Under the pieces are notes generated by a model, which saw only the letters and a list, made by a program, of their open reading frames with translations, was not told where the DNA came from and did not search any database. A stretch of DNA of 64,000 bases from assembly GCA_945888325.1 (NCBI GenBank), contig CAMDAC010000009.1, positions 1 to 64,000 on the forward strand, in the 5' to 3' direction. This document shows positions 3,700 to 36,060 of this stretch, in pieces. Numbering within the stretch: the first letter of the stretch is position 1; every line of letters starts with the position of its first letter. Both the position numbers and the translations under genes were made by a program. Origin of the DNA: Candidatus Sulfopaludibacter sp. SbA3. GTDB taxonomy: Bacteria > Pseudomonadota > Alphaproteobacteria > Caulobacterales > Hyphomonadaceae.

Positions 3700-5299
<1,600 letters not shown>

Positions 5300-17036: not shown

Positions 17037-17978
17037 TCAGGCGCATTCGCGCAGCAACTCCAGCAGCGCGCCGCCGGACTGGTAAGCCGCGAAGATATCC
17101 CCGCTCGGCAGATAGCCGAAGGGGATCGCCACCCGCTTCGACTCCGCCTCGAAACCCGCCTTCCAGGTCTTGGTCGTCTCCGACCCTGACAGCGCAATCC
17201 CGCGCATTTTCGCAAACACGCCGTCGATCAGAAACGGATCATCGCTGAGCGAATAACGCATCTCGTCCCGGAACGTGTCCGAATGGATTGTGGAGCCGAT
17301 CGCCCAGGCCGCCTCGATATCGCGCACGAAGCTGCTCACGAATTGCATGTCGCCGGCGCTCTTCTGGGTCACGGTCTCATAGAACCGCCGCGCACCGATG
17401 CGCCGCGTAATCTGGCGCAGCGCCTCCAGCGAAACGCGCGCACCGGCAGGATTCTGGAGGGCCTGAACGAGGATCGGCCCGAACCATTGCGGGCGAAACT
17501 CCACCAGGATGTCCCGGTTGAACACGCAGTTCACATAGGCCGAATAGGTCACCCGCGGCGAAGCACTGGCGAGGCGGTAACCCACCGGGCACGCCGATCC
17601 GACCGAGACCAGCACGACATTCTCCAGCTTGGCCTCATTGAGGAAGTGTTCGAGCAGCGCCGCCTGTTCGTCCACCGCGCCGACCCGGTCCGACGCGCCG
17701 AAGCCCGGCCGGCGGACCGCGAAAGTGCCAAACCCGGCTTCCGCCGCATCGACGCAGAAGCCCCAGGCCGGACAGTTCGCGTATTCCAGGGAATGCAGGA
17801 AAATCAGCGGCCTCAGATGATCGGCGCCAAACTGCATGTATTCCAGCCGCCGCTTCGACGGCCCGACCCGCGCCGACTGCCACACCCGCAGCACACGCTT
17901 CTTGTCGCCGACTTCGTCGAGCGCATTTCCGCGCGGAGAATCCGCCGGCGCAGGAGAGAGAATCGAGACATTGGTCAT
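17037..17978 (-). CDS. Alpha/beta-hydrolase-fold protein lacking the catalytic Ser and His
   Basis: A 313-residue protein with the layout of an alpha/beta hydrolase: PLIFLHSLEY (oxyanion region), VRRPGFGASD (89-97), and a nucleophile-elbow region VLVSVGSACPVGYRLA. Aligned on the conserved Pro, the position of the nucleophile Ser is Gly127, and the usual GxSxG is absent. Near the C-terminus LPSGDIFAAYQSGGALLELL aligns with the loop that normally carries the catalytic His, but has Asp294. A binding or regulatory role is therefore more likely than hydrolysis. A damaged paralogue lies just upstream on the same strand. A shift of one residue that makes Ser128 the nucleophile cannot be excluded. 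Confidence 0.7.
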   Translation of the reverse strand: MTNVSILSPAPADSPRGNALDEVGDKKRVLRVWQSARVGPSKRRLEYMQFGADHLRPLIFLHSLEYANCPAWGFCVDAAEAGFGTFAVRRPGFGASDRVGAVDEQAALLEHFLNEAKLENVVLVSVGSACPVGYRLASASPRVTYSAYVNCVFNRDILVEFRPQWFGPILVQALQNPAGARVSLEALRQITRRIGARRFYETVTQKSAGDMQFVSSFVRDIEAAWAIGSTIHSDTFRDEMRYSLSDDPFLIDGVFAKMRGIALSGSETTKTWKAGFEAESKRVAIPFGYLPSGDIFAAYQSGGALLELLRECA

Positions 17979-18061: not shown

Positions 18062-18953
18062 TCAGGCGCGGTCTTCAATCAGCTGCAGAAGGGCGCCCGG
18101 ATTGTGGTAGAGCGCAAACAGGCTGCCCGTCGGCAGGATGGCGGTGGGGATTCCCAGCTCGGCCGATTTTTCCTCGAAACTGGTGCGCCATTCGGCCTGT
18201 GTATCAGCGCCGATGACCGCAATGCCGGGAAATCCAGCGAGTGCACCCGGTGTCAGGGACGGATCCGGCTCCAGGCCGCGCAGTTCGCGCTGGAAGGTCT
18301 CGAGCCTCAGCGCGCAGATACAGGCCCAGGCCTCGGCCAGGTCCCGCGTCTGGCTGTGGATGAATTGGGTATCACTCTCCACCTTCAGGAAATTCTCGTA
18401 CAGCGACAGATGGCCGGAACGGCGCCCGATCTGCGAAATCGCCGTCAGCGCCAGACGCGCACCTGCACTCGTCTGAACGGTCTGTATGAGCAGATCGCGA
18501 AACCAGGGCTCGATGCTGCCAAAGTTCGGCGCGGCATAGGCGGGCCGTGCCTTCGGCGATCAGCACGGCGTTCTCGAACTGCGCTTCCTCCAGGAAATCC
18601 TACAGCAAGCGAACTTCCTCGGAAATTGTCGAGACCGGGCTCGTCTCGCCAAATCCCGGGCGGCGCACAGAAACGATGCTGTAACCCTTGTCGGCGGCAT
18701 CGACGCACAGCCCCCAGGGCGGCGCCATCGGATAGTCGACCGAGTGCAGCCAGATCAGCGGACGCAGGTCCGCCTGACCGAACTGCATGAACTGGACGTG
18801 TTTGCCGAGTCCGCCGAGATAGGCCGTCAGCCAGACGCGCAGGATGCGTCTGCGGCTGCCCACCTTGTCCAGCTGGTTCGCATACGGATCGATCGCGCCG
18901 CCGCGCCCCAAATCTTCGGGTGGCTTTCCAAGGCTGGGTATTGACTTAGCCAT
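18062..18953 (-). pseudogene. Broken paralogue of the catalytically deficient alpha/beta-hydrolase-fold gene
   Basis: The N-terminal part from the ATG at 18953 (MAKSIPSLGK) reads through RRRILRVWLTAYLGG, FGQADLRPLIWLHSVDY and VRRPGFGETS, closely matching the intact neighbour. An in-frame TAG interrupts it at 18600-18602. After IAEGTAR the frame must shift near 18545 to continue as IEPWFRDLLIQTVQ, and so on to the stop at 18062. Relative to the paralogue about 20 residues around the nucleophile elbow are missing at that point. Two independent lesions make it a pseudogene. The loop that would hold the catalytic His has Ser here (LPTGSLF). Confidence 0.85.
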
Positions 18954-19199: not shown

Positions 19200-20150
19200 A
19201 TGCCCGATCCGACTATCATGAAGCGCCTGCATCCCGAGTTCGAGCCGTTGTTTGCGCAGTTCGCCGTAGTGCCGGAAACGCCGCCGACAATTCCCGAGAC
19301 GCGGGCGATGTACCGGATGCTGCAACCGATGGCACCGCAGCTGAAGGTCGGCGAGATCCGGGATGCCAGCTTCCCCGGCCCCGCTGGCCCGGTGAAGGTG
19401 CGCCACTATATCCCCGAGGGCAAAGGTCCCTTCCCGGTGATCGTCCATTTCCATGGCGGCGGCTTCATCATGGGCGATCTCGAGACGCATGACGCGCAAT
19501 GCCGCCTGCTGTGCCGCGAGAGTGGCTGTATCGTGACGGCAGTGGACTATCGTCTGGGCCCGGAACATCCCTATCCCGCCGGACACGAAGACAGCTTTGC
19601 CGCCCTGCGCTGGGCCGGGTCGAATGCCACCCAGTTCGGCGGCGATGCCAGCCGGCTCGGCGTGGCAGGCGACAGCGCCGGTGGGCACCTCGCGCTCTAC
19701 TGCGCGCTGCGCGCCAAGCGCAGCGGCGGCCCGTCGATCAAGGCCCTGCTCGCGATCGTGCCGGGCGTCGTGATGGGCCCTCCGCTGACGGACGAGATCA
19801 AGGCGGGGCGCGAGACGCGCAACAACAGCCTGCTCGGCACCGAAGGCATGGACAATTTCGTCGCCGCCTATTTCCAGCATCCTTCGGACCCTGCCGATCC
19901 AGCACTGAATTTCCTGGGCGCGGATGTCTCTGGCCTTCCGCCCTCGATCATCGCGCCTGCCGAAATTGACGTGCTGCATGATGAAGGCGTGGAGATGGCC
20001 AAACACCTTCAGGCCGCCGGCGTGCCCACCCAGCTGATGGTCGCTGAAGGCATGGTGCACATCTATTTCTCGGTGACGGAAGTTTTCCCGTCCGCGAAGC
20101 CCTGGGCAGTGAAGGCTGCGCAGGCGATGGGAAAACTGATGCGGGCTTAG
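19200..20150 (+). CDS. Alpha/beta hydrolase, hormone-sensitive-lipase-type esterase
   Basis: A 316-residue esterase of the HSL/bacterial family IV group. It has the oxyanion motif HGGGF (85-89), nucleophile motif GDSAGG (157-162, Ser159), acid region APAEIDVLHDEG and the C-terminal His in EGMVHIYF. It probably hydrolyses short-chain esters, possibly xenobiotic or lipid-derived. A GGAG ribosome-binding site lies before the ATG. It is convergent with the amidohydrolase gene at 7 bp distance and ends in TAG. Confidence 0.92.
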   Translation: MPDPTIMKRLHPEFEPLFAQFAVVPETPPTIPETRAMYRMLQPMAPQLKVGEIRDASFPGPAGPVKVRHYIPEGKGPFPVIVHFHGGGFIMGDLETHDAQCRLLCRESGCIVTAVDYRLGPEHPYPAGHEDSFAALRWAGSNATQFGGDASRLGVAGDSAGGHLALYCALRAKRSGGPSIKALLAIVPGVVMGPPLTDEIKAGRETRNNSLLGTEGMDNFVAAYFQHPSDPADPALNFLGADVSGLPPSIIAPAEIDVLHDEGVEMAKHLQAAGVPTQLMVAEGMVHIYFSVTEVFPSAKPWAVKAAQAMGKLMRA

Positions 20151-30366: not shown

Positions 30367-30449
30367 TTACACGCGCGAAAGCCGCCGCGCCAGTGTGTAT
30401 TGGCGGGCCTTGCGCGGGGCCGCGTTACGGCTCAAATATCGGCATCAAA

Positions 30450-30523
30450 GCGGGTGTAGCTCAATGGTAGAGCAGCAGCTTCCCAAGCTGACGACGGGGG
30501 TTCGATTCCCCTCACCCGCTCCA
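30450..30523 (+). tRNA. tRNA-Gly (anticodon CCC)
   Basis: A 74-nt tRNA with acceptor GCGGGTG/CACCCGC, D-stem GCTC/GAGC, anticodon loop TTCCCAA, T-loop TTCGATT and encoded CCA. It decodes GGG. Confidence 0.96.
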
Positions 30524-31157: not shown

Positions 31158-31169
31158 GTTGGAGGCGCG

Positions 31170-33617
31170 ATGCTCAAAAACCAAGGCGTTGAACCTCCCG
31201 GCTGCACGATTCAGGGCGTTTCGTTACATTCCCCTCATACGGCAGCCACATCCGGAACGTTCGCGCCGGTGACCCGTTCTCTGTGCTCACCTCCTGAAAA
31301 GTGTGCGCTCATGCCAGCAACGTCCTTTCCCGTACGGCCCAATCTTGCCCGCCTCGAACAAGTGCCCTCGCTTCCGGTTGCGGCAGCTCGTGTGACTGTG
31401 CGCGTTGAGCCGGATACGCTCAGGCTGGCACTTGTGGGCGGCTACGCGCCGCGCCGGTGCGGGATTGCCACGTTCACCACCGACATTGCGGAGACGTTGC
31501 AGGCGTTCCGGCCGGGACTCGGACTCGATGTGTATGTGATCGGCGATCCCGCACAATCGATGCAATACGGCCGTGCAAACGGCGTGATCTCCGCGAACGA
31601 TCCAGCCTCGTACCGCGCCGCCGCGGAGCAGATCAACGACAGCGGTATCGACGCCGTCTGGATCCAGCACGAGTTCGGAATTGATGGCGGCGAGAGCGGC
31701 GAGATGATCTGCGATTTTGCCGATCAGATTGCCGCGCCGCTTGTGTTCACCTTTCATACGGTTCTGGCTGAACCGTCCGACGTGCAGCGCAGGATCATGC
31801 TGCACCTGATCGCGCGCGCGACGCGCATCATGGTGATGTCCAAACACTCCCGCGACATCCTTTCGCGCGTGTATGGAGCGCCTTCGACGGTGATCGACGT
31901 GATCGAGCACGGTGCACCCGACCGGCCGTTTGGACGGCAGGCAACCTTCAAGCAACGCTTTGACCTGGAAGGGCGGACGGTGCTGATGACGTTCGGATTG
32001 CTCGGCCCCGGCAAGGGGTTAGAGCATGCCATTGAAGCCCTGCCCGGCATCGTGCGCGATCATCCGGATGTGGTTTACAGGATCGTCGGCGCGCCCCATC
32101 CGAACCTCGTCGCCCGGGACGGCGAAGCCTACCGCGAAGGGCTGATGGCCTTGGCGGAGCGCCTCGGTGTGGACGCGCACATTCAGTGGGACAATCGTTT
32201 CCTCGATCTGCCGGACCTGCTCGACCAGCTGGAAGCTTGCGACATTTACCTGACGCCGTATCCGAACCTGCAACAATCCACCTCCGGCACGCTCAGCTAC
32301 GCCGTTGCGCTCGGCAAGGCCATCGTCTCGACGCCGTATGTGCATGCTAAGGAACTGCTCGCCGACGGCAACGGCGTTTTGATTGCGCCCGGCTCGCCGG
32401 CAGCCGTCACCGAAGGTGTGAACCGGCTGCTGGATCAGCGCAGTGAGCTCAAGGCGTTGCAACAGCGTGCTTACGAGCGCGGGCGCGCGACGATCTGGTC
32501 ACGCTTCGCCGACGCCACGGCCTCCATGCTGTCAAGCGCGGTGACGCCAGCGCCGGTGATCCGTTCGCCGCTGCGGGCGCCGGACCTTGGCGCCATGTTT
32601 GCGATGAGTGACGATACCGGGATGTTGCAACATGCCATCGGCGTGGTCCCCCACCGTGCGCACGGCTATTGCGTGGACGACAATGCACCGGCGCTGATGG
32701 TGACGACGCGCGCGTCGCGGCATGATCCATCCGTTTCGCGGGCGCGCCGGATTTATGCGGCCTTCGTTCAGGACGCTTGGAATCCGGACACCAAGCGGTT
32801 CCGCAATTTCATGTCCTTTTCCCGCCAGTGGCTTGAAACGGAAGGATCTGAAGACTCCAAGGGCCGCGCCTTGTGGGGCCTGGGGTGGACCATCCGCACT
32901 TGCCAGGAACAGGACATCCGTACGTGGGCGGAAGGTGTGTATGACTGCGCAGCGAGCCATATGATGGCGTTGGGCAGCCCGCGTGCCAAGGCCTTCACGA
33001 TGCTGGCGGCCGCCGAGAACCTTGCAGGGCGGCCCGGGCACGGCGTATCCCTCGACCTTATCGAAGCGGGCGCCGAGCGATTGAACGCCCTTCTTGCCAC
33101 AGCGACAAAGGACTAGCGCTGGTTCGAACCTGTTCTGGCCTATGACAATGCGCGCCTCTGCCAGGCGATGATCGAGGCTGGCGGTATCCTAGGCCGCCGC
33201 AATTTGGTGGAAAAAGGGCTGGACACGTTGTCCTGGCTATCGGCTCGGCTATTGTCCGCCAACGGAAATTTCCGCCCCGTCGGTTCCGAGAGTTTCGGTC
33301 GCGTGCAGGAGCAATGGCCGTTCGACCAGCAGCCGCTGGAAGCGTGGGCAGCGATTGATGCGGCTGCCGCAGCCTACCGCGCGACACGCAACCCGGCCTG
33401 GTTCGAATATGCGCAAACGGCGTGGCGCTGGTTTCTGGGCGACAATGATCGCGGCGCCGTCATCGCCAACCTCGATACGGGGAGATGCTGGGGCGGGCTG
33501 ACCCCGCGCGGGGTCAACCGCAACAGCGGAGCTGAACCAATACTTGCATTCCAGCTGGCTTACCATTCCATGAGCACGTTCGCGTCCCTGACCTCCCGCC
33601 GCGACACTGGAGCCTGA
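31170..33617 (+). pseudogene. GT4-type glycosyltransferase gene interrupted by one in-frame TAG
   Basis: One continuous frame runs from 31170 to TGA 33617 except for TAG at 33114-33116. The N-terminal half is a GT-B glycosyltransferase: GGYAPRRCGIATFTTDIAE, WIQHEFGIDGG, FTFHTVL, FGLLGPGKGLEHAIEAL (donor loop) and QQSTSGTLSYAVALGKAIVST. The second half is a helical domain like an alpha/alpha toroid. At the stop the protein would read KD-stop-RWFEPVLAYDNARL. Trp fits that position, so TGG to TAG is likely. No frameshift occurs. It starts either at 31170 (GGAGG ribosome-binding site) or at 31311. GH130 follows 1 bp later. Confidence 0.85.
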
Positions 33618-33618
33618 T

Positions 33619-34938
33619 TTGAAATCCAATCCCATCCTGCATCCCAACCAGATCAGGATATTCGACACACGGCTGAAGGCCAACCCTTCGAGGGTTGTGC
33701 TGCGGCCATTTCACCTCGGCTGGCAGGCGCAAAATGCTCCGGGCGGCCGCGCCATGAAGCTGGTCGAAGATATCAACGCATTGTCACCAGAGGACACAAG
33801 GGTGCAATACCGGCGCGTGCTGAAGGATTTCAAGGCGCGTCATTGGCAGACGGAGAAGATGTTCTCTGCCCGTTTCGAGGAGGTGGTGACTTCGCTGGAA
33901 CTCAAGGCGAGCAATTATTCGGATACAAAGCGCAAGCTAATTGGAGCCTATTTCTGCCACGAGTAGACCTATGCGGCTGCGGCGCTGATGAACCCCTCTA
34001 TCGTTCCACATCCGGATCAATCCGGCGTCAGCGAGGGTCACTGCCGTTTTGTAATGAGCCTGCGCGCTGTGGGCGAAGGGCATATCAGCACGATTGCGTT
34101 CCGGGAGGGTATTGCCAACCCGGACGGCAGCTTCTCGCTCTGGCCGGACGGTCCCTTCGCCACCTCCGCCGAACTTGATGATGCGACCCTGACAGATGAA
34201 ATGGGCGGGGTCATAGTACACCGCCACTGCGACAGCACCCTGTCCAATACGGTCATCTTTCCGATCACGGAGCAGCAACGCAACGGGCTAGAAGATCTTC
34301 GGCTTGTCCGCCTTGACCATGGCGGCGGCGACTATGAATGGGTTGGTACGTATACCGCCTATTCGGGATCGTCCATCCGATCAGAGCTGCTGCGGACGCG
34401 AGACTTCTTCACCTTTGACCTTGAGCCGGTCCGCGGCGAGGCCGGGCGCAACAAGGGCATGGCCCTGTTCCCGGAACGGATCAACGGCCTTTACACTATG
34501 ATCGGGCGGCAGGACGGGAAGAACCTTTTCCTGCTGCAATCCGACACCCTTTCGGAATGGAAACGCGAAGACACGCTGCTGATGGAGCCCAAGTATCCTT
34601 GGGAGTTCATCCAGATCGGTAATTGCGGGAGTCCGATACGGACGAGCGAAGGCTGGCTGCTGCTGACGCATGGCGTCGGCGCGATGCGCAAGTATGCATT
34701 GGGCTGCGCGCTGCTGGATCTGGACGACCCGTCGAAAGTGATCGCCCGTTCGCGCGAGCCGATCCTGACGGCGGAGAATGCCGACCGATCGGGCTATGTG
34801 CCTAACGTAGTATACACCTGCGGCGCGCTGCGCACCGGCGATCATCTCCTGATACCGTACGGCATCTCCGACAGTGCCATCGGGTTTGCGACGGCCCGCA
34901 TCGACGACCTTCTCAGCACGATGAAGTCCGGCGCCTAG
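33619..34938 (+). pseudogene. GH130 beta-mannoside phosphorylase gene interrupted by one in-frame TAG
   Basis: The frame begins with TTG at 33619 (GGAG 7 nt upstream) and ends at TAG 34938. It is open throughout except TAG 33964-33966. Family 130 features are VLRPFHLGWQAQN, RFEEVVTSLELKASNYS, NPSIVPHPDQSG, FVMSLRAVGEGHISTIAFREG, LEDLRLVRLD and TMIGRQDGKNLFLLQS. The break reads GAYFCHE-stop-TYAAAALMNPS; family members usually have Tyr there, so TAT/TAC to TAG is the simplest change. GH130 enzymes phosphorolyse beta-mannosides. It would encode 439 residues if read through. It converges with the ROK kinase gene by 4 bp. Confidence 0.85.
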
Positions 34939-35897
34939 GCGCTCCAGTTTCCTGCGGCGACGGCTTGGCGGGCCAGCGTGACGGCGCCGATCATCCCGGC
35001 GTCATCTCCGAGCGCCGGGCGCTGAATCAGCGTTTCGATATCCGCCTCGGAGAGTTCGAGATAGCCGTTCAGCAACTTCGCAAAGGCGGCGCGGATTTTC
35101 GGCATCAAGCCTTCGGCGAGCATGACCCCGCCGCCGAGCAGAATGCGCTCTGGCCGCGCGGTGAGCGTCAGCGCAAGACAAGCCTGCGCAAGGTAGAAGG
35201 CTTCGATGTCCCAGGCCGGATGGTTTCTGGGGAGCAGCGTGGGATCGCCGTAGCGGCGCGCGAGCGCGGTCGCGCTCGCAAGGCCTTCGAGACAGGCACC
35301 ATGGAAAGGGCACACGCCTTCGAAGGCGAGATCATCAGGATGTCGCTCAACGCGGATGTGGCCGAATTCCGGATGCGCAGGTTTTGACAGAAAGCCCCCC
35401 GGACCGAACAGGCCGGCACCGATGCCAGTGCCAATGGTAACGTAGGCGGCGGAGCGCATGCCCTTGGCCGCGCCAAGTTCGCGCTCGGCCGCCAAGGCGC
35501 CGTTGACGTCCGTATCCAGAACAACCGGGGCGCCGAGACCAGCGAAGAAGCGCTGCGTCAGGCGTGTGCGCGACCAGCCAGGTTTGGGCGTAGAGAGCAG
35601 CGTGCCATAGTCCGGAGAGGCGGGATCCACATCCACGGGCCCGAAGCTCGCGATGCCCAAACAAGCGAGTTTGGCGCCGCGCACAGTCAGCATCTCCCGG
35701 AAAAAACCGAGGCACCCGCCGATAGTTTCTTCCGGAGAGGTTACAGGGATACGCCGTGTGTCAAGGATATGGCCCGTCGCATCCGCGAGGGCGCACTTGA
35801 AGGTCGTACCGCCGGCATCGATGCCGCCGAGAAGGCGGACCGGAATCTGGGGCGCGGGGGTGTGCGACATGGTTACCGCTTTCTTGTCCGTCAACAT
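34935..35897 (-). CDS. ROK-family sugar kinase (fructokinase/glucokinase-like)
   Basis: A 320-residue ATP-dependent hexose kinase. The phosphate-1 loop is GGIDAGGTTFKCALAD. The catalytic Asp lies in VLDTDVNGALAAE, followed by YVTIGTGIGAGLF and EFGHIRVERHPDD. The zinc site is CPFHGACLEGLASATAL (with the preceding His). ROK members with this motif often act on fructose, mannose or glucose. The start at 35897 was chosen for the GGGAGG site 8 nt upstream. It is divergent from the alpha-galactosidase gene. In this locus it could phosphorylate the hexose freed alongside galactose. Confidence 0.9.
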   Translation of the reverse strand: MLTDKKAVTMSHTPAPQIPVRLLGGIDAGGTTFKCALADATGHILDTRRIPVTSPEETIGGCLGFFREMLTVRGAKLACLGIASFGPVDVDPASPDYGTLLSTPKPGWSRTRLTQRFFAGLGAPVVLDTDVNGALAAERELGAAKGMRSAAYVTIGTGIGAGLFGPGGFLSKPAHPEFGHIRVERHPDDLAFEGVCPFHGACLEGLASATALARRYGDPTLLPRNHPAWDIEAFYLAQACLALTLTARPERILLGGGVMLAEGLMPKIRAAFAKLLNGYLELSEADIETLIQRPALGDDAGMIGAVTLARQAVAAGNWSA

Positions 35898-36060
35898 GGC
35901 GAGACCTCCCGTTTGCACGATCTCATTCGTTCCACGGGCGGATTGCGAAAGATTTACACGAACCTGTGCAAATAGGCGGTCCCGTGAAGCATGAAGCAAC
36001 AGCTTGCCTTGCGGCGGGGTTGTGGGCAATCCGTGTGCATCGCGAACGGGTGGGAGTGGG

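Follow-up and report, generated by a model that had tools for sequence, protein, structure and literature searches.

Why do two adjacent glycan genes in one genome each carry a single in-frame TAG at a conserved residue? The question arose from a sequence-only reading of the window, that is, the whole stretch of 64,000 nucleotides analysed here, which left three options for a glycosyltransferase (GT) gene and a GH130 gene: the recent death of both genes in the same pathway, an amber suppressor or readthrough, or sequence errors. In-frame stops occur widely among bacterial genes and as a rule do not last long, according to a survey (PMC7918605) whose account of gene function gives no major trend except an excess in mobile elements, with many cases also in carbohydrate metabolism. 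From dN/dS values below 1, its authors infer frequent readthrough. Premature stops have also been described as adaptive, reversible losses of function, transient over short timescales (PMC11379459). Among the literature matches listed, nothing dealt with the GT–GH130 pair or with stop codons in Hyphomonas. Our comparison of the locus with its relatives indicates that both TAGs are probably real and recent nonsense mutations, by which a dispensable GT–GH130 pair lost, or started to lose, its function. The most likely reading is an ordinary, very recent and successive loss of an optional two-gene module, not a new reading of the genetic code.

Two frames with one internal stop each

Translation of the two frames confirmed that each is open from end to end except for one TAG. 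The GT4-type glycosyltransferase frame (31,170–33,617, plus strand) has its only internal stop at 33,114–33,116, at residue 649 of the frame. Its likely start is the ATG at 31,311, given that the one-base gaps that separate it from its nearest relatives, near 31,218 and 31,309, sit just ahead of this codon. Pfam glycosyltransferase families, including PF00534 (2.1e-15), match the protein at residues 98–437 only, upstream of the stop, and the helical part that follows has no Pfam match at E values up to 0.001. The structure model of the intact GT, built from the closely related locus L077 (pLDDT 85.8), comprises a GT-B-like part of about residues 1–393 and a helical C-terminal domain; the listed matches with solved structures are GT-B enzymes, MshA and PimA among them. 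In this model, the site of the Trp-to-TAG change lies between the helices at residues 561–581 and 596–610. This Trp (W585 in alignment A1, 32 sequences) is invariant, as are many residues in the C-terminal part cut off by the TAG. By the model, the stop would remove five predicted helices of that domain. Normal termination at 33,114 would be expected to leave a GT of about 600 amino acids, counted from ATG 31,311, whose helical domain lacks its final portion.

The GH130 frame (33,619–34,938, plus strand), arranged head to tail with that of the GT, begins with TTG, 6 bases downstream of a GGAG, and ends at a natural TAG terminator; its one internal stop is the TAG at 33,964–33,966, at residue 116. 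Membership of the family is clear from Pfam PF04041 (113.2 bits against a gathering score of 26; E = 1.6e-32). The affected Tyr116 is invariant in alignment A2 (32 sequences). In the model of the intact protein, built from the second close locus, L078 (pLDDT 77.0), N-terminal helices extend up to residue 111 and the first propeller strand starts at residue 124, so that Tyr116 falls in a low-confidence stretch between the two, just ahead of the beta-propeller. The nearest solved structures are beta-1,2-mannoside phosphorylases. With such enzymes as Teth514_1788 and Lin0857 (PDB 9fj8, 5b0p), the window protein has the catalytic propeller in common by both sequence and fold; it differs from them in that its propeller is preceded by some 120 residues of N-terminal helical sequence, and in that its scores fall far below the curated NCBIfam cut-offs. 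The equivalog models for beta-1,2-mannobiose phosphorylase returned only 152.4 of the 450 and 144.8 of the 550 bits needed, so that beta-1,2-mannoside phosphorolysis is no more than a candidate reaction for this protein. Normal termination at 33,964 would be expected to yield a stub of 115 amino acids that lacks the catalytic propeller. An in-frame ATG lies 21 bases past the TAG and opens a frame of 316 amino acids over the predicted propeller (33,988–34,938, plus strand); a search for a Shine–Dalgarno match before this ATG found none.

The two sites in relatives

A scan with one genome per species returned 80 related loci, 77 of which hold both positions. The GT site is Trp and the GH130 site is Tyr in all 77, which bears out the residues that had been expected from the window alone. 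In each of these loci the two genes are adjacent, with 2 to 173 bases between the matched ends. The nearest two relatives, both metagenome-assembled genomes (MAGs), are L077 (genome G061, contig LNFC01000009.1) and L078 (genome G062, Hyphomonas sp. RI_47, contig WGNP01000021.1); two further hits, L176 and L177, were left out as they lie on the wrong contig of G062. Both genes are intact in L077 and L078, with TGG and TAC at the two sites, and both coding frames align with the window without indels, the sole exceptions being the single-base gaps near 31,218 and 31,309. Neither TAG occurs in any of the 77 loci; among the loci examined, the stops were found in the window genome only. Stops that are private to one lineage and replaced by sense codons in close relatives form the pattern of a recent nonsense pseudogene, whereas a programmed readthrough stop should be conserved among relatives. 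A shared programmed stop was therefore rejected.

Stops inside the matches at other loci lie either near the N-terminus (query positions 23–46) or at the C-terminal end (position 437), with the exception of L155. This locus is one of the three without both positions and is discussed below. In the second, L156, the frame changes near GT residue 422, and the sequence ends with the contig. The third, L150, is on a 4,995-base Novosphingobium contig (NZ_JAPCZF010000018.1, 251–1,577), where the GT match reaches only residue 457 and the frame stays open for only about 150 bases beyond the match end; there is neither a helical domain nor a GH130 gene on the contig, though the contig continues. L150 is either a shorter GT or a rearrangement, and a GT without the helical domain may thus exist elsewhere. 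More distant adjacent GT–GH130 pairs are present in four others of 61 genomes, the window's own being counted in the 61 (G001, G014, G021 and G054); the Trp is kept in all four and the Tyr in three, with Asn in G001.

Two of the loci, L077 and L155 (CALGEF010000282.1), carry Acidobacteria labels, yet they share about 89–94% DNA identity with the window in the same order. The Hyphomonas MAG L078 likewise aligns with the window, at 88% DNA identity, and the Acidobacteria labels look wrong since both loci align with the window as this MAG does.

Selection and age of the stops

Comparison of the window with G061 gave dN/dS values of 0.09 for the GT and 0.03 for GH130, and comparison with G062 gave 0.09 and 0.06, respectively. 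The check proposed earlier, dN/dS downstream of each stop, returned similarly low values (0.10 for the GT and 0.02 for GH130 against G061; 0.10 and 0.05 against G062), so purifying selection is still visible there. Control regions ranged from 0.01 to 0.22 between the window and G061; 18 of 19 were valid, region '46087' being dropped for a wrong frame (dN/dS near 6).

Changes were also assigned to branches. With the stops excluded, the changes private to the window in both genes are 23 nonsynonymous and 97 synonymous (N/S 0.24), against 15.5/130.5 (0.12) on the G061 branch and 67.5/184.5 (0.37) on the G062 branch, or 83/315 for these two together. The window ratio is about twice that of G061 and below that of G062, with a neutral expectation near 2.4, and shows no clear relaxation. 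Downstream of the stops, the counts are 11/49 on the window branch and 27/120 on the other two branches together. A neutral phase occupies at most 3.4% of the window branch (one-sided 95% bound; 9.5% with G061 alone as reference), or at most 6.7% when only the parts downstream of the stops are considered (13.2% with G061 alone). From 33,500 to 34,500, identity of the window to G062 (0.900 and 0.916) exceeds that to G061 (0.872 and 0.878), the reverse of most flanks. Judging from these identities, recombination has probably touched the 33.5–34.5-kb stretch within the broken pair, which is a caveat for the branch-wise figures.

Given purifying selection on the window branch, downstream of the stops as well, the stops are young, at most about 3–13% of the branch. 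Past the likely GT start there is no other stop or frameshift in either gene. A recent pseudogene should show few further lesions and lack a long neutral phase, and both hold here. However, with stops private to one genome, the low dN/dS is mostly pre-stop history and cannot separate recent loss from readthrough; a low value downstream of a private stop is not by itself readable as readthrough.

Other lesions on the contig

A comparison of 62 G061 genes from the same contig gave three that we counted as broken in the window genome, and the GT–GH130 pair accounts for two of them. The screen had flagged ten; seven were set aside by eye, as the window frame was open or the stop fell early in an ORF that was too long. 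The TAG of the GT was not printed in this screen, where a one-base indel before the start put the gene out of frame, and was seen in the other comparison. In the reverse direction eight genes were flagged, and none was judged a clear break, by overall judgement and not gene by gene.

The third broken gene (18,062–18,953, minus strand) is intact in G061. The in-frame TAG noticed earlier at 18,600 is real on that strand (TCG in G061), but it is not comparable with the other two: 65 bases are missing near 18,552, and this deletion shifts the frame. We accordingly rejected grouping it with the GT and GH130 stops. A paralogue of this gene lies at 17,037–17,978, and the paralogue query was unmatched in G011 and G062.

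TAG as a stop codon in the window genome

The suppressor option found no support. None of the 37 tRNAs detected in the 65-contig draft genome has the anticodon CTA. The first tRNA search missed selC, the selenocysteine tRNA; a search of this kind can thus miss unusual tRNAs, and a draft may lack some tRNA genes. Release factor 1 is present and intact (prfA model, 472.3 bits against a cut-off of 423.25), and the best PylS score, 31.6 bits, is far below its cut-off of 178.15. As in amber suppression or pyrrolysine decoding, TAG lies inside conserved genes here; unlike in those systems, no CTA tRNA was found, PylS stays under its cut-off, RF1 is present and TAG is an ordinary terminator. Suppression, pyrrolysine and loss of RF1 were rejected on these grounds. 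On contig 11 of the window genome (66,335–68,323; L164, L178), the selenocysteine tRNA stands beside a selB match over the cut-off, so UGA can apparently be decoded as selenocysteine in this genome. This machinery was rejected as a decoder of TAG, as its tRNA (anticodon TCA) reads TGA.

Of 34 listed genes, 10 have TAG as their terminator, among them GH130 and the neighbouring ROK gene, and 7 of these 10 end in TAG in G061 too; the 34 come from a hand-picked ORF list, some of which may not be genes. The earlier assignment of TAG as a true stop holds for the esterase (19,200–20,150) and obgE (4,118–5,299). Neither mark of recoding, loss of RF1 or avoidance of TAG as a terminator, was seen in the window genome. 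With the window's codon usage and nine mutation spectra, TAG makes up 55–61% of random nonsense mutations. The chance that two of two stops are TAG is about 0.30–0.37, and that for four of four (the two here, 18,600 and one in the remnant of sister species G011) is about 0.09–0.14. A TAG-specific excess or cause was rejected, TAG being already the likeliest nonsense outcome here.

The same locus in sister species

In sister species G011, whose contig appears from its match to be that of L155, window positions 32,095–34,891 have no counterpart, a loss of about 2.8 kb that held most of the GT–GH130 pair. Its alignment runs up to window position 32,094 and resumes at 34,892, with an 8-base overlap at the join. 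The GT remnant carries a TAC-to-TAG change at the equivalent of 31,611, plus a frame change. Its dN/dS against G062 is 0.39, compared with 0.09 between G062 and the window over the same stretch. The pair has decayed independently in this sister species. The more distant congeners G022 and G010 have no GT, GH130 or ROK gene between the HU and GH36 genes, which are spaced by about 320 bases in G022 and 1,190 in G010. Since the block is absent in these two, it was either gained in a small clade or lost outside that clade.

Probable recent loss and its alternatives

The recent death of both genes in the same pathway, one of the options raised from the window alone, gives the best fit to the intact relatives, the lack of other lesions, the selection data and the decay in the sister species; the last of these makes recent loss well supported. 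Relaxed selection, lesions in sister strains and the lack of a suppressor tRNA had been named together as a sign of such loss. The lesions, in a sister species, and the lack of a suppressor were found; clear relaxation on the window branch was not, as expected if the stops are young. In the course we propose, one gene of the pair would have been lost first, its partner, then useless, would have taken the second stop, and too little time would have passed since the stops for further lesions to appear. The ribosome would be expected to stop normally at both TAGs. Against recent loss, the selection data fit readthrough or sequence error equally, all four in-frame stops discussed are TAG, and reinitiation could still make the GH130 propeller.

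Sequence error ranks second and is unlikely. One or both TAGs would then be a mistake in the sequence or its consensus, or a minority allele that entered a mixed assembly, and the organism itself would have intact genes; such genes would be free of other lesions and under purifying selection on the window branch, as observed, and the genome is a draft of 65 contigs. Yet it would be improbable for two substitution errors to arise independently within some 850 bases of each other on an otherwise clean contig, the 59 of 62 compared genes that are unbroken by our own reading argue against a generally error-ridden assembly, and the same pair is lost in the sister species. More doubtful than an error is that both genes function despite the TAGs, either by low-level UAG readthrough on both or as shortened GT-B and reinitiated propeller enzymes; if true, a two-gene pathway would be throttled, not killed, by matching stop codons.

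Taken separately, both routes to function are unlikely. Readthrough, be it by a near-cognate tRNA, through weak termination or by a suppressor that escaped the search, would keep both proteins at a low and possibly regulated level, and is very improbable: selection downstream of both stops, the otherwise open frames and the survey's argument that many bacterial in-frame stops keep dN/dS below 1 (PMC7918605) are in its favour, but no CTA tRNA was detected, RF1 is intact, PylS is under its cut-off, no relative has either TAG, and TAG ends nearly a third of the listed genes, GH130 and the adjoining ROK gene among them. Less probable still is that the pieces work as they are, the truncated GT with its GT-B domain and the GH130 propeller remade by reinitiation at ATG 33,988. 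The GT-B part and the family matches do precede the stop, the modelled propeller strands lie within the 316-residue frame, and L150 hints at a GT without the helical domain; the missing Shine–Dalgarno match, the five predicted helices lost along with many invariant residues, the retention of both sites in side-by-side genes at 77 of 80 loci, and a sister remnant without most of both genes all speak against it.

Recent loss of the pair thus remains the preferred reading, and is otherwise ordinary genome decay. It resembles the short-lived stops of the survey (PMC7918605) in that each lies in an otherwise intact, conserved gene with low dN/dS; it differs in that two neighbouring partner genes are hit by private stops, whereas the paper focuses on stops found in at least two species. 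It is also like the reversible adaptive losses described elsewhere (PMC11379459), where loss-of-function stops are transient alleles, and an adaptive, transient loss of the window pair is possible. Either way, the locus offers a clean snapshot of pathway loss, with two partner genes hit before other decay, and related species hold the same locus in intact, deleted and absent states.

Neighbouring genes

The ROK-family gene (34,935–36,029, minus strand) is intact in the window and joins the GT and GH130 genes as the third part of the block that G022 and G010 lack; the GT, GH130 and ROK genes (31,160–36,047) may form one present-or-absent block. Further on lie galactose genes (GH36, GH42, GalT, GalK and an epimerase), none with a lesion counted as real. 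Just before a tRNA-Gly gene (ccc), at 30,393–30,450, G061 is about 1.8 kb longer than the window; a gap of comparable size interrupts the G022 alignment at this join, while the alignments of G062 and G011 continue across it without a break. The difference resembles an indel next to a tRNA gene.
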